Of a DNA stretch of 39,597 nucleotides, positions 3,781 to 29,633 are shown piece by piece. The translations under genes were made by a program, and so were the position numbers. The DNA lies in IMG/VR virus record IMGVR_UViG_3300025886_000070, positions 1 through 39,597 of that record; one strand, written 5' to 3'. The DNA is from a virus. The notes beneath the pieces are model-generated. The model was not told the DNA's origin. It ran no database searches and saw only the letters and a list, made by a program, of their open reading frames with translations. Numbering within the stretch: the first letter of the stretch is position 1; every line of letters starts with the position of its first letter.

Positions 3781-3812
3781 AAAACCCAGGATTCTAGGAC
3801 CCTGGGTTTTTT
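3781..3812 (+). terminator. Rho-independent terminator
   Basis: AAAACCCAGG (3781-3790) pairs perfectly with CCTGGGTTTT (3801-3810) across a 10-base loop, with a T-rich 3' end. It lies 20 bases after the stop of the small barrel gene. Confidence 0.9.
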
Positions 3813-11973: not shown

Positions 11974-12416
11974 AACTAAAAGCATTCACTAATATTTTAT
12001 TAAGTATTAGAGATCTTTCAAATTCTTCTACTACTAAGGTTGGTTGTATGGCCTTAAAAAAAGACTTTAGTAAAATAGCAAGCTTTGGATATAATGGCTC
12101 TTATAGTGGAGCTGAATCTAACAGTGATACTGGAACTGAAGAAGATTCTTTAACACCAGGAGAAAGTGGATTTATTCATGCTGAGGTAAATATGATTGCT
12201 AAGTTTCAAGAATACGATCCACAAAATTATATAATACTCTTAACTTTATCACCATGTAAAATGTGTACTAAAATTCTGGTTAATGCAGGATTTAAGCATG
12301 TTTATTGGATGCAAGATTATAGAGATACTGAACACCTTCAAATTTTTAATGAATGTAATGTGACACACGGTAAAATTTTCAACCTATTAAATGACTACCG
12401 CATAATAAAGGACTGA
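11943..12416 (+). CDS. dCMP/cytidine deaminase family protein
   Basis: Encodes 157 residues. The zinc-binding signature is complete: H79-A-E81 (FIHAEVNMI) and P104-C105-K-M-C108 (SPCKMCTKIL). The N-terminal TTKVGCMAL and FGYNGSYSGAE match the nucleotide-binding part of dCMP deaminases, which convert dCMP to dUMP for thymidylate synthesis. T4 gene cd has the same role. The start overlaps the HAD gene by 31 bases. The stop TGA lies in the inverted repeat and promoter element of the next gene. Confidence 0.9.
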   Translation: MDPKLQRLQIKLKAFTNILLSIRDLSNSSTTKVGCMALKKDFSKIASFGYNGSYSGAESNSDTGTEEDSLTPGESGFIHAEVNMIAKFQEYDPQNYIILLTLSPCKMCTKILVNAGFKHVYWMQDYRDTEHLQIFNECNVTHGKIFNLLNDYRIIKD

Positions 12417-12441
12417 ATATATACTAAAAATAGCAAGTCCT
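12409..12441 (+). promoter_or_regulatory. Promoter element inside a start-occluding hairpin, upstream of 12443
   Basis: AGGACT (12409-12414) and AGTCCT (12436-12441) are perfect inverted arms. The 21-base spacer carries AATATATACTAAAAATAG (12416-12433). The right arm ends one base before the TTG at 12443. The copy at 19588 shares 21 identical bases including the preceding CTG. Transcripts starting after the element would lose the left arm. Confidence 0.6.
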
Positions 12442-12442
12442 C

Positions 12443-13024
12443 TTGGTTGTAGAAGCATTAACATTTAAACTTTCCTTAGACTTTTTTGTTTACTTAAAAA
12501 AGTACAAGATAGTAGTGTCAAAAATCCGTATTGGGTTTTTTGATGTTGCTGAAAATAAATCAACATACACTGATTTTAGTAGCATTGATGAAATGGAATT
12601 ATTTTACCAGACTAATTATGTACCATTTGATCCATGTTTTGTTGGAGACTTAGTATCTATACAGGTATTTATAGGTGAAAGTAATTTATATGAATTTACC
12701 ACAGAATACCGAGCGGAGAATATTACAAAAGTTTTTAAGCTTACTTCTGGTTCATCATTTGATATACAAAGAAATAAGCAGAGAGAAATTTTAACTAATA
12801 GACAAATAGGGTTTATAAACAGAGCGGTTGAAGATTATAGAAAATTCTGGAATGAAATTAATAGAATATATACAACAGGCATTTATTCTATATGCTATGC
12901 AGAACCAGGATGGTCAGAAGGTACTTGGTATTTAGACCAATTAAGATTAGCATTTACAGAAAAAAATGATGTGGCGGAATTCCCATATGATGACGTAAAT
13001 ATTATTCCTGAACCACCTGAATAA
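12443..13024 (+). CDS. Hypothetical protein before the collagen-like fibre, TTG start
   Basis: Encodes 193 residues if begun at the TTG at 12443. This start is chosen because an in-frame TAG lies at 12431-12433, no ATG occurs until far downstream, and the promoter element has its usual 27-base spacing from this TTG. The protein mixes beta strands with one long helix (LTNRQIGFINRAVEDYRKFW) and ends acidic and Pro-rich. No known domain is seen. Its position directly upstream of the fibre suggests a fibre- or baseplate-attachment protein, an inference from order only. Confidence 0.65.
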   Translation: MVVEALTFKLSLDFFVYLKKYKIVVSKIRIGFFDVAENKSTYTDFSSIDEMELFYQTNYVPFDPCFVGDLVSIQVFIGESNLYEFTTEYRAENITKVFKLTSGSSFDIQRNKQREILTNRQIGFINRAVEDYRKFWNEINRIYTTGIYSICYAEPGWSEGTWYLDQLRLAFTEKNDVAEFPYDDVNIIPEPPE

Positions 13025-13044: not shown

Positions 13045-16000
13045 ATGGCATTCAATCTAAAAGAATATATCATCTACAGAAATGAAATTAAAAGGGAACT
13101 TTTTAATGGTGAGGTAGATGAAAATTTTAAAGCAGTAGCTAATCCGTGGGTAGATAATAGAACATATGACACTGGGCATATTGTATATCACCCAGTAGAA
13201 GTATTAGAACCTACCGGTAGTACAAGTGTAGTAACAGAAACTCTAGTTTGGTGGAGAGCAAATAAACGAACTACCCAAGGGGTGTTTGTAACAGCTGAAT
13301 GGGATATCATTGGTGGTATTGGAACTGGTGACGTGACAGTAGGTTCATCAAATGGTTATGGTAAAATAGTTGTTAATTATACAGGTGCTACACCTTCATT
13401 AGCAGCAGCAAATGATTTTACTTTAAATTCTACAATTGCAAATGATACATTTAGATTAATAGCCGGTGACGGTGTTCAATTACAATATGATAGTACTGTT
13501 AATGCAATTAAATTAATTAACTCTTCTGCTGGTGGTGAAATAAATCAAGGATTAAATATAGGTATAGGTGCCGGTGTAGAGAATGTGTTTGGTGGAATGA
13601 GTGGTACTACTTTAACCTTTAGAGGTCTTAATGCGTCTAATACATATAGTACATTAGGTGAACCTTTAGCATTAGCTTTTAATTCACCTAACCAATCTGT
13701 TGTTTATAATTTTGACTCTTCTTTAATTGACTTAGCAACTCTTAATAATAACAGTACCGATATTAATAGCCTAGGAAATGTTAAGGCATCTGCAGCAGCA
13801 ACTTCTGAATTTTTACAATATGATGGGAGTGATTGGGTAAATGTAACGGCAGCAGCTGCTGGTTTACTTGGAAGTCAGGGTGTAACCGGGACTCAAGGTT
13901 TACAAGGTTTACAAGGTAATGATGGTTTCGGTTTACAAGGTACTATAGGTGCACAAGGTATACAAGGAACTCTAGGTATTCAAGGTTTACAGGGAGTTGA
14001 AGGTTTTGGTTTACAAGGTACGCAAGGTGTACAAGGAGAAGCATCAACCATATCAGGACCTCCTGGTACGCAAGGAACACAGGGTGTAGGATTACAAGGT
14101 GCTGATGGTGGTACCGGTTTACAAGGGTTTGTAGGTACACAAGGAACTAAAGGAGATCAAGGTGGTTTTGGTGGTGCATCGTTTGATTATAATTTTAATA
14201 TACAAACATCTGTGGCTGATCCAGGCTTTAGTTATGTTTCTGTAAATAATACAGATCAATATTTAGCTAACATAATGGCTATTAACGACTTTGGTGTTAC
14301 AGGAAATAACATATCAACCTTTTTAGAAACTATAAGAAGTTCCACATCAATACCTAAAGGTCATGTAAGGATTACATCGCAAAGCGATGCTAATGAATTT
14401 ATACTTTGGCAAATAACAGAAGTGTATGATAGACCTTCTTCTGGTGGAACATGGTGGGAATTAGATGTTGTACCAGTTGCTTATACAGAAAATGCTCCAT
14501 TTATAATGGACGAAGACGTTCTAGTATCATTTGTTGTGACAGGTGATAGAGGAGCTCAAGGTACTGAAGGAAGTGGTACACAAGGAACAATAGGTTTACA
14601 AGGAACTGATGGTTCTCAAGGAACTTTAGGTACTCAAGGTATCCAAGGTTTACAAGGTGTTCAAGGTTTACAAGGAACTGATGGCTTACAAGGAATCCAA
14701 GGTTTACAAGGAACTCAAGGTTTACAAGGAACTCAAGGTTTACAAGGTTTACAAGGATCAGGTTCCCAAGGAGTTCAAGGTTTACAAGGTTTACAGGGAG
14801 CTCTAGGTTTGCAAGGGATAACTGGTGAAGGTACTCAAGGAACCCAAGGTTTACAAGGTATCGATGGTTCAGGTTCACAAGGTGTACAAGGTTTATCTGG
14901 TTCTATAAGTGGATCCGTTGCATACGGTTCTATGATATTAGATAGCTCAGCACCAGCAATAACATTAACAAATTCTTATGAAGGTTTACTATTAGCGTCT
15001 GGTGAAATAAATCAAATGGCATATGTTCCTTCAGGTGGAAGCCCACAAGGTAATGTACTAAGTATTGATGCTAATGAAGCCGGTAATTATGAAATTAACT
15101 TTACTCTTAGTGGAGTAGCCGCATCAACTGTCGGTATTTTTGCTGAAATATTTGTTAATGGTAATCCATACAGTGGAAGTGGTACTACTGAAATCCGATC
15201 AACTTTTAATGGAAACGATTATAATAGCATGTCTACTGTAGATATATTGGATCTTAATGGCGGTGATCAAGTTGAGGTTAGAATTAAGGACTCAGCAGGT
15301 ACTTCTATAATTTTCACAGTAGCAAATATTTCACTTACATTAGTTAAACTTGTTGGTAATGGAGATCCTGGCACGCAAGGAACACAAGGTTTACAAGGTA
15401 TTTCTGGTTCAGGTAGCCAAGGTACATTAGGAGCCCAGGGAATAGATGGTTCGCAAGGAATTCAAGGATTAGATGGTTCACAAGGAATACAAGGTTTACA
15501 AGGATTAGAAGGTTCACAAGGAATACAAGGTTTACAAGGATTAGATGGTTCACAAGGAATACAAGGTTTACAAGGATTAGAAGGTTCACAAGGAATACAA
15601 GGTTTACAAGGATTAGACGGTTCACAAGGAATACAAGGTGCACTTGGTGTACAAGGTGTACAAGGTTTACAAGGAACTGTAGGAAACACCGGTTCACAAG
15701 GAACTATAGGAACCGAAGGATTAGGTTCTGGCTGTATCTCCGGTATGCAATTTGGTTGGACTAGTGTGGTCAATGTTTTAACTCCTGGTTCGGCAAATGA
15801 GATTCAGCTAAATTCTGTTAATACCAATAATGTTAATACAATTTATATAGGTACTAATATTATTCACCCGGTTGCCCTTAATGTAGGTGACACTATTGCA
15901 TTAAATGTATCCCAAACTGGTACACTGGCATTATATACAGTAAACAGTATTACCGGTAATATTGGATATGATGCCTTAGGTGTTACATTCCAAACTGGAA

Positions 16001-17376
16001 ATTATGTTATAGGGCCAGCTGGTGGTGCCGGTAATATATTTGAAGCCTATACATATTGTATATACCCTGCATCTGTGGCAGGTTCGCAAGGAACACAAGG
16101 ATTACAAGGATTAGATGGTTCACAAGGAACACAAGGATTACAAGGATTAGATGGTTCACAAGGAATACAAGGTTTACAAGGATTAGAAGGTTCACAAGGA
16201 ATACAAGGTTTACAAGGATTAGATGGTTCACAAGGAACACAAGGATTACAAGGTTTACTCGGTGTACAAGGTGTACAAGGTTTACAAGGAACTAATGGCC
16301 TAGATAATGGATGTGCTGAAATACTAGGATCAAATTATGTCTCACAGACTCCATTAAATGCAGGCACTTTTACTTCATCTGATGTTGGTGTTAATGTAGC
16401 AGATGGTGGATTCACTAGTAATATTACCGAGATATTTTTAGGTTTGGCTAGTGGCGTTCCACAGCCGAGCACAGGTTTACCAATAGGCAGTACAATAACA
16501 ATATCAGAATCACCTGCAAATACTACTACATCAGTGTATACTGTAACTAATGCTACTGTACAAGGATTTATTGGATATGTATATGATGTTACTTATGTTA
16601 CCGGCTTAGATATTAGTAATACTGCAACAGCTCATCGAGTATGTGCTTCAACTGCAGGTATACAAGGTACTTTAGGTACACAAGGTGTACTCGGCGTACA
16701 AGGTGTACAAGGTTTACTCGGTTTACAGGGAACTAACGGTACTGATCTTGCTGGAGAAATAGTAAAATCATCATTTAGAGCTAAGTTTGGTTTACCTAGG
16801 TATATACCCGGCGATGCAGCAAACAGTTCATTTAGAATAGGCGGACCTGATCTTGCTAACGGGTTTGATGGTGGTGGATGGAATTCTGCGTATTGGGGTG
16901 ATAACACGGTAGGCAATGGCGGAACTGTTAGTGGTGTTGGTGGATTCCAAGACCAATTCACATTAATGGGTAATAGTATTGTCTCATCAAAGAGTTATAT
17001 TGTTGGCGATAAAATATCCTTTAGAGGAGTATTTGTCGGTAGAAGAGCAAGTGGAGCATATTCGGCACCTTCAAAGATCGGTATTAATTTATATAAACTA
17101 AAATGTGGTATTCTTGGCGATGGAACCAACGAATGGCAAACTATAGCTAGTACAATTATAGAGTCAAATAATGTTGTATTCGAAACGACTAGTGAAGGTG
17201 AAGGTAGAGGTAGAGTTTGTGTTAATGGAGAATTTACTCTTGATAAAACTGTTAATAGATTTTCTGAATATTTAGCGGTAGGGTTTGCTGCAAGTACTGA
17301 CGGTGAGGAAAGTTTTGGTGGAAACGACATGATTGTATCTTATCTATTATTTAACGGTAGTGATCCACAGCCTTAA
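13045..17376 (+). CDS. Giant collagen-like tail fibre / receptor-binding protein
   Basis: Encodes 1443 residues. Residues 30-95 ([38 protein letters not shown]) resemble a CBM5/12-type carbohydrate-binding fold. Five collagen-like Gly-X-Y segments follow at about 276-374, 503-619, 773-892, 1013-1088 and 1205-1232, nearly always with Gln in Y (GLQGTQGIQG) and almost no Pro. Between them lie globular modules. Residues 620-770 look like a C1q/TNF-type jelly roll ([22 protein letters not shown]). The modules at about 895-1010 and 1090-1200 are similar to each other ([20 protein letters not shown]). A 210-residue C-terminal domain ends the protein. It is probably trimeric and host-binding. Confidence 0.85.
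15475..15618 (+). repeat. Four tandem 36-bp repeats in the fibre gene
   Basis: Four 36-base units (starting GGTTCACAAGGAATACAAGG) are identical except for the last codon, which alternates GAA, GAT, GAA, GAC. They encode [11 protein letters not shown] followed by E or D. Partial units flank both sides (15448-15474 and from 15619). Confidence 0.95.
16081..16260 (+). repeat. Five tandem 36-bp repeats, second array in the fibre gene
   Basis: Five in-frame 36-base units encode GSQG[IT]QGLQGL plus D, D, E, D, L. Units three and four (16153-16224) are identical or nearly so to units of the array at 15475, so recombination between arrays could delete or duplicate the module between them. Confidence 0.93.
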
Positions 17377-17432: not shown

Positions 17433-17924
17433 ATGGAAAATACAGAAGAAGTAAACCTACAGTGGATAAAGGGAGATAAGTTCGGTTCAGTGGAAACAGT
17501 TGAAAGTACTGAAGGTGAATGGACGATATTTAAAAACGGTGGTAGGATAGCGACAAGCTTACTTAGCGAATTTTTAGAACCAATAGATGGGGAGCCATTA
17601 GATTTTAGTCCTCCTACACCAGCATTAATAAAAGCAGCTGAGGTCTATAAAGAAAAGGTGACACCGCAAAAAGCTATTACATCTCCAATAAGAACCCTCT
17701 TTGATAAACAGAAAAAGAATGATAAAGTAAAACTGAATCTTTCATTTCCAATAGACGTTCCTAAAAAGGCTATATATGAAATTATTAGTTCTTCATTTGA
17801 TAGCGAAGAAGTAAATGATGAATTAGAAGTCTTTATTAAAAATCAAATATCTGAAGACTTAATTTTAGATAGTCTTTTTGATAGCATTAAAGAATTAATT
17901 AAAACTAGATACGGTATTGACTAG
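17433..17924 (+). CDS. Hypothetical protein with possible SH3-like N-terminus
   Basis: Encodes 163 residues. Residues 8-50 (WIKGDKFGSVETVESTEGEW, then FKNGGRIATSLLSEFLEPI) look like a small beta-barrel of SH3 type. A Pro-rich linker and a helical C-terminal domain (YEIISSSFDSEEVNDELEVF, LDSLFDSIKELIKTRYG) follow. No family is recognised. It starts 56 bases after the fibre stop behind an AAGTATAATAATTATAAAATG stretch 29 bases before its ATG. It may be an assembly factor or structural protein; only gene order supports that. Confidence 0.65.
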   Translation: MENTEEVNLQWIKGDKFGSVETVESTEGEWTIFKNGGRIATSLLSEFLEPIDGEPLDFSPPTPALIKAAEVYKEKVTPQKAITSPIRTLFDKQKKNDKVKLNLSFPIDVPKKAIYEIISSSFDSEEVNDELEVFIKNQISEDLILDSLFDSIKELIKTRYGID

Positions 17925-19028: not shown

Positions 19029-19588
19029 AAGCACACAGAATATTTACCAAAGGACAAATCGTATATTGCCTACTATCCTCTTTTAGTAGGCCTAATGTTT
19101 TGTTGCCAGTAAAAGGACTTATTGTAGATACACAGTGGGATCCTATTAACCCTCTTTATCAAATTCGTATTATTAAGATGTATGATAATATGAAATATCT
19201 TAAGTCTCATTTTTTTGATATGAACTTTAAATATGAGTTTAACAATAGGGCTAGAAAAATGCCTATTAAAAAAGAAGACTTTAAAAATGTAAAATCATTA
19301 GAAGATAGGTTTGATGAAATTGATAGAGATAGGTTATATGTAATTGTAGAATCTGTTATGTGTAAGAAAACTAAAAATGATTTGCAAGGTTTATTTGAAA
19401 AAGTTCAATTTTATATAATATCAAAAAACCTAAAAGAAATAAGAGATATATCATCAAGGCCGTTTTTTAAAGGTTCTCTTTCTACTGATAGCTCACAAGA
19501 GTTTAATGTTAGGTTTAAAAAAGGATGGGTGGATAAATTCCAAAAAGGAGATATTGACATTGATAAGTATCTCAACAGCTTAGGCTGA
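19025..19588 (+). CDS. Hypothetical protein with beta-rich N-terminus
   Basis: Encodes 187 residues. Residues 1-60 (FTKGQIVYCLLSS, VLLPVKGLIVDTQWDPINPL, YQIRIIKMYDN) look like a small beta-barrel. The rest is basic and helical with a polar C-terminus (FQKGDIDIDKYLNSLG). No family is recognised. Its stop codon TGA lies inside the promoter/hairpin region of the next gene, so read-through from it would produce the occluded form of the 19615 start. Confidence 0.65.
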   Translation: MKAHRIFTKGQIVYCLLSSFSRPNVLLPVKGLIVDTQWDPINPLYQIRIIKMYDNMKYLKSHFFDMNFKYEFNNRARKMPIKKEDFKNVKSLEDRFDEIDRDRLYVIVESVMCKKTKNDLQGLFEKVQFYIISKNLKEIRDISSRPFFKGSLSTDSSQEFNVRFKKGWVDKFQKGDIDIDKYLNSLG

Positions 19589-19609
19589 ATATATACTAAA
19601 AATAGTCTA
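19581..19609 (+). promoter_or_regulatory. Promoter element inside a possible start-occluding hairpin, upstream of 19615
   Basis: TAGGCTG (19581-19587) pairs with TAGTCTA (19603-19609) through seven pairs, two of them G-U. The 15-base loop holds most of AATATATACTAAAAATAG (19588-19605). The element starts 27 bases before the ATG at 19615, and the right arm ends 5 bases before it. Confidence 0.5.
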
Positions 19610-19614
19610 TCTAT

Positions 19615-21402
19615 ATGTCCACAACAACAACAGGAAGTAACAGTAGTGTAAATGATAACACATCACCTAATCCTAATTCATCATCGCCTAATAGGTTAGG
19701 TGTTTTTGGCGGTGAATCCACGGGCTTTGCCCACGGTGTTGAAACTGAAATGGCTAAATCCTTTTATTCTAATGGAGCAATACCAGATCAATTTGGTGTA
19801 GCTACAGGTATGAACGCTGTTGTACCTAGATCCATATTTAACAGATATGCTTTATTTAATTTTAGAGGTTTGCATGGTGGACTAACTGGTGGAAAACCTT
19901 TTACTGATTTTAAGGATAGTCCTGATAATGCTACTATGGGTGGTTCGGATTCAAAGAATGTTTCCATTGCCAAACTTATAGATTATTTTAATACCAATTA
20001 TCCTAGGATATCATATACTGCTCAAGATTTCTTATATTGTAAATATTATAAACAAATACCAGTGAATCACCTTGTTACTTTAAGGCGTTTCCCAACACCA
20101 GTAAATGATAACATATTTGATTTAAAAATGGATATAGCAGGAAAAGATCCTGATACACCTAGGGCTGCAGAAAATGTAGATGCTACACAAACCGCTGGTG
20201 TTACTGCCATTACATATTTAGGTGAAAAGGCAGGAAACAAATTAGACGACATATTAACAATGTCTTATGGTTTAAACTATAAGGAAGTTAAATCTGAAAT
20301 GGAAGATATTAGTAGTGGTGACGGTGGTTATACCTCTCAGCCTTTCTATTCTAAGATGGGTGGTGTAGGTAAAGCAACCGCTGATGCATTTAAAGGAATT
20401 AGCTCAAGACAAAAATTTGCCAAACAAAATATGTCTACTGGTGATCAGCTAGGAACCACTTATGCTAACTTTGTAATAGGACCTGTTAATGTTATTGATT
20501 CAACACAGATTAGAGATCGTGGTATGAAATTCTCAAATGACTTAAAACTTAATTTTGAATACGAGCTTAAATCTCTTAGTTATGTTAATCCTAAAATTGC
20601 TATGATTGACATTATTAGTAATATGTTAACTATGACTTATAATAATGGACAATTCTTTGGCGGTGGTCAAAGGTACTATGGTAGTGCTGGTGCTGTTGCT
20701 AGTCAATTTGGAGATATTAATAAATTAAAGCAAGGAGACTTCAGTGGTTATATAGGAAGTGTAGTTACTGATGTTGAAACTGGATTTAAAAGTGTATTTG
20801 GGGATGCTAATGGTAATGTAAATGCTGAGAGTGGAATTGAAGGATTACTTAAGGTTGGTAAAACTATGTTAGGTAATATGCTAGGTGGATTCTTAAGTGA
20901 TAATGTTGGAGCAGTTTCAGGTACCCAAGCATCTAAAGCTTTAATAAGCGCAGAGCCTACTGGTGATTGGCATGTAACTGTAGGTAATCCACTTAACCCA
21001 ATTGTTACAATGGGTAATATGTATTGTGATAATTCAACAATGACATTAGGGCAAGGTTTAGGTTATGATGATTTTCCAATGGAGGTTAAATTTGAAATTG
21101 ATCTAAAACATGGTAAGCCTAGAGATAAGGGTGATATAGAAAATATGTTTAATGCAGGTCGTGGTAGAATTTACGCATCTGCTCAAGGTGAAGAAGATAT
21201 TTTAAATTTAGCAGGATTAGATGTTGCTACTTATGGTGCAGTTAAAGCAGGTAAGAGTAACACACAAGCTACACAAGGTGCACGTGCTGGTAATACTAAA
21301 AGTAGTCAAATATCCAATATAAAAGATAATCCTAATAAACAAGCAACTAGTGATAGTGCCGAGTATATTTCTAATACGGTAAGTATGTTTATTGATTCTT
21401 AA
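19615..21402 (+). CDS. Large baseplate / tail-tube structural protein
   Basis: Encodes 595 residues. The N-terminal 30 residues are Ser/Thr/Asn-rich and probably disordered. The rest is Gly/Asn-rich and beta-rich. The C-terminal segment GDWHVTVGNPLNPIVTMGNM, then PMEVKFEIDLKHGKPRDKGD and IENMFNAGRGRIY, has the look of T4-type baseplate proteins at the tube-baseplate junction (gp48/gp54 class), but I cannot assign one. It heads the baseplate operon: 14 bases later comes the gp53-like gene, followed by hub and spike genes. It has its own late-promoter element. Confidence 0.7.
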   Translation: MSTTTTGSNSSVNDNTSPNPNSSSPNRLGVFGGESTGFAHGVETEMAKSFYSNGAIPDQFGVATGMNAVVPRSIFNRYALFNFRGLHGGLTGGKPFTDFKDSPDNATMGGSDSKNVSIAKLIDYFNTNYPRISYTAQDFLYCKYYKQIPVNHLVTLRRFPTPVNDNIFDLKMDIAGKDPDTPRAAENVDATQTAGVTAITYLGEKAGNKLDDILTMSYGLNYKEVKSEMEDISSGDGGYTSQPFYSKMGGVGKATADAFKGISSRQKFAKQNMSTGDQLGTTYANFVIGPVNVIDSTQIRDRGMKFSNDLKLNFEYELKSLSYVNPKIAMIDIISNMLTMTYNNGQFFGGGQRYYGSAGAVASQFGDINKLKQGDFSGYIGSVVTDVETGFKSVFGDANGNVNAESGIEGLLKVGKTMLGNMLGGFLSDNVGAVSGTQASKALISAEPTGDWHVTVGNPLNPIVTMGNMYCDNSTMTLGQGLGYDDFPMEVKFEIDLKHGKPRDKGDIENMFNAGRGRIYASAQGEEDILNLAGLDVATYGAVKAGKSNTQATQGARAGNTKSSQISNIKDNPNKQATSDSAEYISNTVSMFIDS

Positions 21403-26155: not shown

Positions 26156-26173
26156 AATATATAATCTATAATA
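26156..26173 (+). promoter_or_regulatory. Promoter-like element upstream of the S1-like gene
   Basis: AATATATAATCTATAATA begins 37 bases before the ATG at 26193. A second AT-rich stretch, AAGTATAATAATTAAATC, lies at 26128-26145 and is similar to the sequence before 17433. The 87-base gap suggests independent expression of the S1-like gene. Confidence 0.4.
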
Positions 26174-26192: not shown

Positions 26193-27365
26193 ATGATTGA
26201 ACAAGAAATCACAGTTATGAATGGTGATGATCCATTTGATACTACTACGATAAAAGTAATGGTTCCTAAAGGTACTAAATTAATGAGTACTGAGGCTTAT
26301 GCCGCTGATGTAATGGCAATGTATGATTTAGCTGATGATGAAGCCAAAAAACTACAAATGTCCGAGGAGAGTACCAATTATATTACACAAGGTGAAATTG
26401 TTTATATTAAAACTGAGATTCAAAATATAGATGGTGAAGATACTGAAGTTAAGATAGAAGCATTAGTAGATATATCAAGAAAGAATACAGCTGTTTGTAA
26501 TTTACAAAAAGAACCTAAAGAAATTGTTGACCAATTAGAAAAAGGTATGATTGTTGATATTAAAGTCAAGGATCACAAGCAAGGAACAATGTATGCTTCT
26601 ATCAGTGATGCAATGGATGAAGTTAAACGTAATGAAATTTATAATGCCATTGGAAATAAGTCAATCGGTTTTACTGGTAAAGTTAAAGAATTAATCCACG
26701 GAGGATATTGGGTTGAAGTTGGTGGAGTTCAATGTTTTATGCCAGGTTCGTTAGGCGGATTAAATAAGCTACATAATTTTGAGGCTATAGTAGGAAAAGA
26801 ATTAATTGTTATGCCTATTACATATTCAAATGAAAAACAAACTATTGTCGTTTCACATAGGGAGTATTTAAGAACTATGATCCCAACGGCAGTAGAAAAT
26901 CTTAGAGAAAATATTAAAGAACCTATTATAGGAATAGTAACCGGTACAACTAAGTTTGGTGTATTTGCTGAATTTAATGAATCTTTAACTGGGCTTATAC
27001 CTAAAAATGAATTGGATGAATCTACTTTACAATTATTTGATAATAGAAGTATAAGGCCAGGTGACGAGATTAATTTCTGGGCAAAGGAAATTATTTCAGA
27101 AAGAAAAATTATTTTAAGCCAAGCCGGTCCTAAAATTGATTTATGGGATGGTGCTGATGAAAAATATAAACCAATGATGATCACTGAAGGTAAAGTTACT
27201 AAAGTTACAAAGTATGGTGCATTTGTAGAATTAGAAAAAGGTATCAGTGGACTTATTCATAAAACTAAGTTAAAGAATACTGAAGTTTCAAAGGGTGATG
27301 TTGTTAATGTTAAAATCGGCAGTGTTAATACCAGTGATCGTAAGATTACTATGAACTTAGTATAA
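26193..27365 (+). CDS. S1-domain RNA-binding protein (ribosomal protein bS1-like)
   Basis: Encodes 390 residues with about four S1/OB repeats: a divergent one at about 65-140, then 148-217 (GFTGKVKELIHGGYWVEVGG), 240-312 (IIGIVTGTTKFGVFAEFNES, GLIPKNEL, KIILSQ) and 325-390 (EGKVTKVTKYGAFVELEKG, GLIHKTKL, KITMNLV). The last two are canonical. bS1 binds mRNA on the 30S subunit and helps start translation where Shine-Dalgarno pairing is weak or absent. Host bS1 usually has six repeats, so this shorter form could replace or compete with it. It sits inside the baseplate block with its own promoter-like element, which is unusual. Confidence 0.85.
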   Translation: MIEQEITVMNGDDPFDTTTIKVMVPKGTKLMSTEAYAADVMAMYDLADDEAKKLQMSEESTNYITQGEIVYIKTEIQNIDGEDTEVKIEALVDISRKNTAVCNLQKEPKEIVDQLEKGMIVDIKVKDHKQGTMYASISDAMDEVKRNEIYNAIGNKSIGFTGKVKELIHGGYWVEVGGVQCFMPGSLGGLNKLHNFEAIVGKELIVMPITYSNEKQTIVVSHREYLRTMIPTAVENLRENIKEPIIGIVTGTTKFGVFAEFNESLTGLIPKNELDESTLQLFDNRSIRPGDEINFWAKEIISERKIILSQAGPKIDLWDGADEKYKPMMITEGKVTKVTKYGAFVELEKGISGLIHKTKLKNTEVSKGDVVNVKIGSVNTSDRKITMNLV

Positions 27366-27367
27366 CC

Positions 27368-27406
27368 TTTATCCTGGTTTAGAATATATAAACAAATCAG
27401 GATAAA
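27368..27406 (+). promoter_or_regulatory. Promoter element in the loop of a 13-bp start-occluding hairpin, upstream of 27408
   Basis: TTTATCCTGGTTT (27368-27380) pairs with AAATCAGGATAAA (27394-27406) over 13 pairs, one of them G-U. The 13-base loop AGAATATATAAAC holds the promoter core, which begins 25 bases before the ATG at 27408. The stem ends one base before the ATG and starts two bases after the S1-like stop. Read-through mRNA would bury the start; mRNA begun at the element would lack the left arm. There is no T-run, so it is not a terminator. Confidence 0.7.
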
Positions 27407-27407
27407 T

Positions 27408-28706
27408 ATGTATTCTAACGAACAACTTAATGCTATACATTCTTCAAAGATAGGTTTTGAATTTGAGTTTTTTTCAAATGAAAATTTAGACCTTACTAAA
27501 GACGGTTTAGCACAAACCTTAAACAAGGCAATTAGAGTAGAAGAAAAAGCTCATAGTGACTTTGCGCCTACTCAAGATATCTTTAAATTAGAACCAGATA
27601 ATTCCGGTGGTACTGGGATGATAGAGCTGGTAACTGGACCTCTGCCATTTGTTGAAGCTAAACTAATTATGGCTAAAACTTTAAAATGGATTAGAGAAAA
27701 CGGAAAGACTAATGAAAGATGTTCAATCCATGTTAATATTGCATTTGATGGAAAAAAGCTAGGGCCTATTGTTAATATGTCTAAATTAGATGTAGGTAAA
27801 TTTGTACTTAACTTTGATGAAAACAAAGTATATGAAGCCTTTCCAAATAGAAGAGATTCTGTTTATGCAAAATCTATAAAGTTTATTGTACCTTTAAGTG
27901 GTATGACTCAACCATCACCAGAAAAAAATCTTTGGAAAAACTATATGTTTGTCAAAGAAAAGTATTATGGCATTAATTTTGAAAAGTTACAAAAAGGCTA
28001 TATTGAATTTAGATATCTTGGTGGTGCCGATTATGAAAAGAAGTATTCTACAATACTTTCAATGACCGAACATTTTATTACTTCATTGTATGAAACTTTG
28101 GTTAATCCACAATATAATGAATCTGACTTAAAAGTTTTAGATAAGATTTTAGAAAAACATAAAACTGTTGTTGAATCTTATCGAACTTATTCTTCGTTTA
28201 AAGAAAAATTTCCAAATGTTCATTTAATGATTGATCTAAAAACATATGATCAAATTGTTGAAATGTATTACCCTAAAATTAGAGAAAAGATTTTTGATTT
28301 AATTACCAGAGCTGATATGAACGAAGGTTTAATTAATTATGATAGTGATACTGGAAGAATACAAATCAAAGATGCTAAGCTAATGAGATGTTTTGAAATA
28401 AGCGGTGTTGATATTGTTGATTCAGTTATTCAAGGAAATATAGTTAATTGTGATATCTTTGGATGTGACCTTAAAAATGCATCAGTATTTGAATCTAACT
28501 TATTTGGTGCGACTGTGGCAGAAGGCTGTAAAATAGAAGAATCGTATGTTAGTAGAAATGTAATATGCGAGGAAAGTTATGTATTTGGAAAAAGGGGAGT
28601 GTTTAGTGGAGAAATGGTTGGAGGTATTTTTAGACAAGGTAGAGCAACCCCTCTTGCAAGATTTGGAGATAATACTGAAGTAATAGAAATAGAAAAAATT
28701 AAGTAA
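27408..28706 (+). CDS. Amidoligase-like protein with C-terminal beta-helix repeats
   Basis: Encodes 432 residues. The N-terminal 270 residues carry the pattern of the COOH-NH2 amidoligase family (glutamine-synthetase/GCS fold): KIGFEFEFFS, then GMIELVTGPLPF, then CSIHVNIAFDG, then KFVLNFDENKVYEAFPNRR and YIEFRYLGG. Such enzymes join amino groups to carboxylates using ATP. Residues 340-405 form pentapeptide-like beta-helix turns (SVIQGNIVNCDIFGCDLKNA, SVFESNLFGATVAEG). The combination suggests modification or capping of a virion or host peptide; the substrate is unknown. It is controlled by the strongest hairpin in the window. Confidence 0.7.
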   Translation: MYSNEQLNAIHSSKIGFEFEFFSNENLDLTKDGLAQTLNKAIRVEEKAHSDFAPTQDIFKLEPDNSGGTGMIELVTGPLPFVEAKLIMAKTLKWIRENGKTNERCSIHVNIAFDGKKLGPIVNMSKLDVGKFVLNFDENKVYEAFPNRRDSVYAKSIKFIVPLSGMTQPSPEKNLWKNYMFVKEKYYGINFEKLQKGYIEFRYLGGADYEKKYSTILSMTEHFITSLYETLVNPQYNESDLKVLDKILEKHKTVVESYRTYSSFKEKFPNVHLMIDLKTYDQIVEMYYPKIREKIFDLITRADMNEGLINYDSDTGRIQIKDAKLMRCFEISGVDIVDSVIQGNIVNCDIFGCDLKNASVFESNLFGATVAEGCKIEESYVSRNVICEESYVFGKRGVFSGEMVGGIFRQGRATPLARFGDNTEVIEIEKIK

Positions 28707-29606: not shown

Positions 29607-29633
29607 GAGAATATATAATAAAAGAATATTCTC
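29607..29633 (+). promoter_or_regulatory. Promoter element with start-occluding inverted repeat, upstream of gp25
   Basis: GAGAATAT (29607-29614) and ATATTCTC (29626-29633) are perfect 8-base inverted arms with an 11-base loop. The element AATATATAATAAAAGAA (29610-29626) overlaps the left arm and loop and begins 25 bases before the ATG at 29635. The right arm ends one base before the ATG. Confidence 0.6.

Follow-up and report, generated by a model that had tools for sequence, protein, structure and literature searches.

The closest described systems are found in phage T4 and its relatives. In T4 gene e, a late promoter lies within a hairpin, between its two arms, the hairpin extending to the ATG, and the late RNA is described as lacking the 5' portion of the structure (PMC3014915); for T4 I-TevI and segB and for mobE of phage Aeh1, the structure forms on read-through transcripts, and the late promoter is placed such that the late RNA cannot fold (PMC2988022). 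Genes e, soc, I-TevI, segB and mobE have been reviewed as controlled by structures of this kind (PMC3014915, PMC2988022). In T4 gene 25, a conserved stem in the leader of the baseplate gene improves initiation by shortening the distance between the Shine-Dalgarno sequence and the AUG (PMC3014915), i.e. it aids initiation, unlike the start-blocking that is proposed below for a hairpin ahead of a ligase gene. Among the top matches listed in a search of the open-licence literature, there was no report of such an arrangement in phages of the type analyzed here.

The locus belongs to a 39.6-kb virus record with T4-like baseplate genes, the whole of which (39,597 nucleotides) is referred to here as the window. 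On the plus strand, between a gene with S1 RNA-binding domains and a gene for an amidoligase-like protein, reading of the sequence and folding identified a hairpin with the 5' arm TTTATCCTGGTTT (27368 to 27380), the loop AGAATATATAAAC (27381 to 27393) and the 3' arm AAATCAGGATAAA (27394 to 27406). The stem comprises 13 pairs, one of them G-U (27377 with 27397), and a single base, 27407, separates it from the ATG at 27408, so that the coordinates of the original prediction were reproduced. Because the S1-domain open reading frame stops at 27365, the hairpin takes up almost all of the 42-nt junction. The promoter-like motif AATATATAA (27383 to 27391, plus strand), of a class that is placed before gene starts, lies in the loop. 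A terminator scan of positions 27200 to 27600 found no terminator-like site, i.e. no G+C-rich stem followed by a T-run, in agreement with the absence of a T-run noted in the original prediction. When folded alone (27340 to 27440; MFE −16.7, z = −2.49, with 6 of 200 shuffles as good), this single site is only moderately unusual.

The layout seen in T4 gene e, with a promoter inside a start-covering hairpin, was upheld for the window and its relatives by prediction and comparison. As in gene e, the hairpin is predicted to cover the start region on the longer RNA, and the motif is placed so that RNA begun at the promoter would lose the 5' arm; the likeness extends to I-TevI, segB and mobE, in which the structure forms on read-through RNA and the promoter RNA escapes, as is predicted here. 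However, T4 gene e hides a Shine-Dalgarno site, whereas here the start region is covered and there is no Shine-Dalgarno signal; T4 gene e follows early genes, whereas the S1 gene that precedes the ligase gene carries the late-type motif too; and the gene that would be locked encodes a ligase of the glutamine synthetase (GS) fold rather than a lysozyme. I-TevI, segB and mobE differ from the ligase case in being homing endonuclease genes with a sequestered ribosome-binding site. When the same script was applied to the three T4 precedents named in the original prediction, gene e, with TATAAATA between the arms and a stem that reaches the ATG, gave a signal (z = −3.21, p = 0.007; opening cost 16.1 vs. 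2.0 kcal/mol), soc gave none (p = 0.88), and gene 49 had no motif match within the stretch taken.

For comparison with relatives, 235 ligase-gene starts were examined, five matches without the N-terminus (L039, L059, L160, L179 and L183) having been excluded before counting; 210 starts had the motif, here defined as [A/G]ATATATA, in range, 21 did not, and four had too little upstream sequence. The 210 starts fell into 44 clusters at 85% junction identity, and because many loci share contigs, clusters rather than loci were taken as the unit; the cluster statistics treat clusters as independent, which is true only in part. In our reading of the predicted folds, 40 of the 44 clusters (all but L173, L189, L190 and L193) have a stem that encloses the motif or uses it as the 5' strand, and whose end falls on, close to or within the start codon; the likely start codon of L055 is a TTG at the stem end. 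The letters of the 5' arm differ by lineage, e.g. TTTATCCTGGTTT in the window, GCCCGGTTTAT in L054, ACATACCAGGTTTAA in L049, ATTCTGCCTGAAT in L052 and TAGACTGATATA in L188. The start codon also has an alternative partner, read from the sequence: TTAGAATATAT (27379 to 27389, plus strand) can pair with ATGTATTCTAA (27408 to 27418) over 11 pairs, one of them G-U, a competing fold that is not the predicted best in the window; in clusters L041, L133 and L140, pairing of the promoter strand with the start codon region is the predicted fold.

When only the 25 nt before the motif were shuffled, 32 of the 44 clusters reached p < 0.05 and 18 reached p < 0.01 (median z = −2.83). The 12 clusters that missed p < 0.05 were L041, L045, L051, L055, L133, L173, L175, L189, L190, L193, L215 and L258, including the four without a hairpin. 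Exchange of 5' arms between clusters raised the mean folding energy from −12.46 (own arm) to −7.24 kcal/mol (swapped arm); the permutation test was significant for all 44 clusters and also within each of two clades (p = 2 × 10−4), and the four poorest ranks over the 44 were those of L173, L189, L190 and L193. RNAalifold found no pairs on ordinary alignments of either clade, which we think is due to sliding stems; the evidence thus consists in the turnover of whole stems, not in column-by-column covariation. In the window's own cluster (65 sequences, 11 haplotypes), the inner eight pairs hold in 9 of the 11 haplotypes and are shifted by one base in the remaining two (5 sequences), whereas the outer pairs vary uncompensated. 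The expected compensation of the arms was therefore observed across clusters and for the inner pairs among close relatives, but not for the outer pairs. The hairpin in the window is real and is maintained by selection; that it exceeds chance follows from the shuffle and arm-swap comparisons of relatives and not from the window site alone.

The motif in the loop recurs before other genes. Of all 8-mers upstream of genes in the window and 13 related contigs, AATATATA showed the strongest enrichment (present in 76 of 641 non-redundant leaders vs. 14.4 expected), and 81 of the 112 copies of AATATATAA on both strands of these 14 contigs lie 12 to 45 nt upstream of a start on their own strand, compared to approximately 2.0 expected. 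The shared promoter core of the original prediction is thus borne out as a motif with a specific position, and by its placement AATATATAA behaves like a one-element promoter. In the window alone, a looser motif with 2 mismatches was not enriched (47 found vs. 38.6 expected). T4 late promoters are described as having a −10-like element and no conserved −35 element (PMC7892883), so that at a promoter of this kind the upstream flank would be free to form an arm; by analogy, transcripts from the ligase gene's own promoter would start at 27393 to 27401 on the plus strand. The T4 late sigma factor gp55 matches the PHROG family phrog_234, and members of this family were found in 11 of 20 related records: each of the 11 that reach 103 kb or more has one, and each of the 9 that are 81 kb or shorter, possibly fragments, has none. 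The family phrog_12791 yielded only marginal matches, in 5 of the 20, and was set aside. The presence of phrog_234 together with the lone motif fits a late promoter but does not prove one. Two leaders in the window (about 12400 to 12443 and 19575 to 19615) share CTGAATATATACTAAAAATAG, a motif variant flanked by a short palindrome.

The strong pairing is largely specific to the ligase gene. Among 71 non-redundant motif sites in the 14 contigs, p ≤ 0.05 in the shuffle test was reached by 6 of 8 ligase genes and by 2 of 63 other genes (in G008 the S1 gene, in G006 the gp25-like gene); of these 63 control genes, 42 were less structured than their own shuffles. In the two long contigs G021 and G024, with 22 motif genes tested in each, 3 of 22 and 3 of 22 reached p < 0.05, the ligase gene ranking first and second. 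Further motif genes show pairing between the 5' flank and the leader at p < 0.05 (G024 at 113733 and 171937, G021 at 156532 and 121644, and G008 at 17548) and, judging from sequence, are possibly locked in the same way.

The median cost of opening the region from −12 to +6 in the 44 clusters was 9.8 kcal/mol on the read-through RNA and 2.7 kcal/mol on the promoter RNA, with the higher cost on the longer RNA in 44 of 44 clusters; for the 63 control motif genes, the corresponding values were 2.9 and 1.8 kcal/mol. In a scan of 5' ends, the median opening cost was 3.9 at the motif start and at most 3.2 from +2 onward, so transcripts beginning roughly at the motif start or beyond it are predicted to have the start region free. 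Averaged over the AUG triplet alone, the probability of being unpaired was not uniformly lower on the longer RNA. Thus, of the occlusion that had been predicted for the AUG region, coverage of the start region from −12 to +6 stands as a prediction, but the AUG triplet is not uniformly more paired.

The ligase gene (27408 to 28706, plus strand) was assigned from Pfam, a structure model and structural alignment. Its match to Amidoligase_2 (PF12224; 20.9 bits) falls under the gathering cut-off of 22, and 6 of 10 relatives match the family at E ≤ 0.01. The structure model (pLDDT 91.5) aligned best, among glutamine synthetases, with 4bax_A (Z = 12.5, rmsd 3.2, 181 residues aligned); a Foldseek search gave E = 7.4 × 10−5 but a TM score of only about 0.28, and the C-terminal part is strand-rich with a weak match to pentapeptide-repeat proteins. 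As modelled, the protein has the GS catalytic-domain fold and is a putative ligase. The upstream gene (26193 to 27365, plus strand; PF00575, 72.7 bits), the proposed source of read-through RNA, precedes the ligase gene in 43 of the 44 clusters, lying 247 to 624 nt away in 3 of these 43 (the 44th cluster has only 52 nt of upstream sequence), as well as in 21 of 21 motif-less relatives. On two long contigs (G021 and G024; L376-L393), one strand carries 205 of the 209 and 194 of the 201 genes called, so that read-through would be pervasive.

The hosts are likely Bacteroidota, as judged from 36 phage records that match the baseplate protein: 15 are of Prevotella, 5 of Tenacibaculum, 2 of Chryseobacterium and 1 of Flavobacterium, the others being of Rhizobium (5), Sphingomonas (2) or uncultured (6). 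A scan of genome contigs gave two distant relatives in bins and no host clue. The Shine-Dalgarno signal was absent from 571 leaders (27 vs. 26.3 in shuffled sequences), as had been predicted for this phage, and the leaders are A-rich with a peak at −13. Flavobacterium johnsoniae has been reported to lack Shine-Dalgarno sequences and to tune translation by structure and upstream nucleotides (PMC6847099).

Three of the four hairpin-less clusters (L173, L189 and L193) have a clear terminator-like stem and T-run between the upstream gene and the promoter; L190 gave a weak match in one terminator scan that was missed by a stricter one, and has a longer stem by eye. With equal upstream stretches for clusters and controls and the looser setting, terminators were found in 3 of the 4 hairpin-less clusters, 1 of the 40 others (L051) and 3 of the 63 control motif genes (p = 0.001, Fisher test, for 3/4 vs. 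1/40), L189 and L193 being alike, which leaves few independent cases. Of the 21 relatives without the motif (35 to 40% identical), one (L061) has a terminator, and 14, as judged by eye, begin with a TTG overlapping a TGA, a layout that suggests coupling to the preceding gene and not insulation. A terminator has apparently replaced the hairpin in a few clusters, and with one device or the other the ligase gene looks shielded from read-through.

These results can be set against explanations in which the start codon plays no part. The hairpin could be a terminator or stabilizer at the 3' end of the S1 transcript that is near the start codon only incidentally: the S1 gene stops just ahead of it, a T-run follows the stem in cluster L048, and the hairpin-less clusters have terminators at the same junction. 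However, the terminator scan was empty at the window hairpin, the best stems end between −7 and +6 of the start codon in 40 of the 44 clusters, and a stem with such a role need not wrap a promoter; we regard this role as quite unlikely. Strong repeats on the reverse strand in many clusters (median z = −1.95) would be expected of a DNA palindrome, either bound by a dimeric regulator or forming a cruciform that assists promoter opening, but most other motif genes are without a repeat, and this explanation is made very unlikely by the turnover of arm sequences between lineages and by the excess of G-U pairs. The best ungapped stems contain 458 Watson-Crick, 45 G-U, 18 C-A and 28 other pairs; the G-U share is greater than in shuffled stems (p = 0.002), and the preponderance of G-U over C-A points to sense-strand RNA. 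Sense-strand z values were also more negative than reverse-strand values (p = 0.003, Wilcoxon test). Chance pairing in A+T-rich DNA, for which the modest z of the window site might speak, is scarcely credible given the shuffle and arm-swap tests over 44 clusters.

The best-supported reading, and one that we hold with considerable confidence, is a lock on read-through RNA of the T4 gene e kind. On RNA that continues from the S1 gene, the junction would fold and hide the ligase start region, and ribosomes would load poorly; RNA begun at the gene's own late-type promoter inside the hairpin would be without the 5' arm, open and translated, and this promoter would be the main source of the ligase. 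Of this scheme, the start of the transcript, the repression and the purpose are what we infer. The original prediction had assigned the same mechanism a narrower purpose, a timing switch that would keep the gene silent on early read-through RNA, by means of the hairpin, and express it late from the late promoter. T4 gene e is described as working so (PMC3014915), long relatives have a late sigma factor, and non-structural genes such as those for DnaJ and a DNA ligase precede the locus in the same orientation in the window, making early read-through conceivable. The adjacent S1 gene, however, has the same motif (26156 to 26164, plus strand) without a hairpin (z = +1.40 in the shuffle test), so the read-through RNA may itself be late. 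The switch is thus not supported as stated, and insulation is a safer reading than a clock: delay until late infection is a possible purpose, with the balance leaning against it, and the most likely one is to insulate the gene against read-through where almost every gene of a genome has the same orientation. A two-gene circuit, in which the S1-domain protein would bind or melt the A+U-rich ligase junction and its level would decide whether read-through RNA is translated, would explain the constant presence of the S1 gene upstream, including in the motif-less relatives, but seems unlikely.

A read-through lock at this locus would extend the T4 gene e design to large phages that do not use Shine-Dalgarno pairing, with selection seen across dozens of clusters in which the letters of the stem have been replaced. 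With it, one can test directly whether structure by itself suffices to close a start codon in translation of the Bacteroidota type, and it offers a signature by which to recognize, in sequence, the genes whose expression from read-through a phage must avoid; for the GS-fold ligase, leaky expression seems to be avoided.

Some other features of the window were observed. An Rfam search of the window returned one tRNA only (RF00005, 4245 to 4317). An inverted repeat, AAAACCCAGGATTCT / AGGACCCTGGGTTTT, followed by T's at 3781 to 3810 is terminator-like, and positions 13045 to 17376 encode a 1443-aa protein with collagen triple-helix repeats (PF01391), probably a fibre. A weaker second hairpin of 8 pairs (29607 to 29614 with 29626 to 29633), with the promoter motif in its 5' arm, lies immediately upstream of a gp25-like baseplate gene (29635; PF04965, E = 0.045); the leader of T4 gene 25 likewise has a conserved stem. 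Hairpins related to it were folded in 80 loci and fell into 6 types, with MFE from −2.2 to −7.7.
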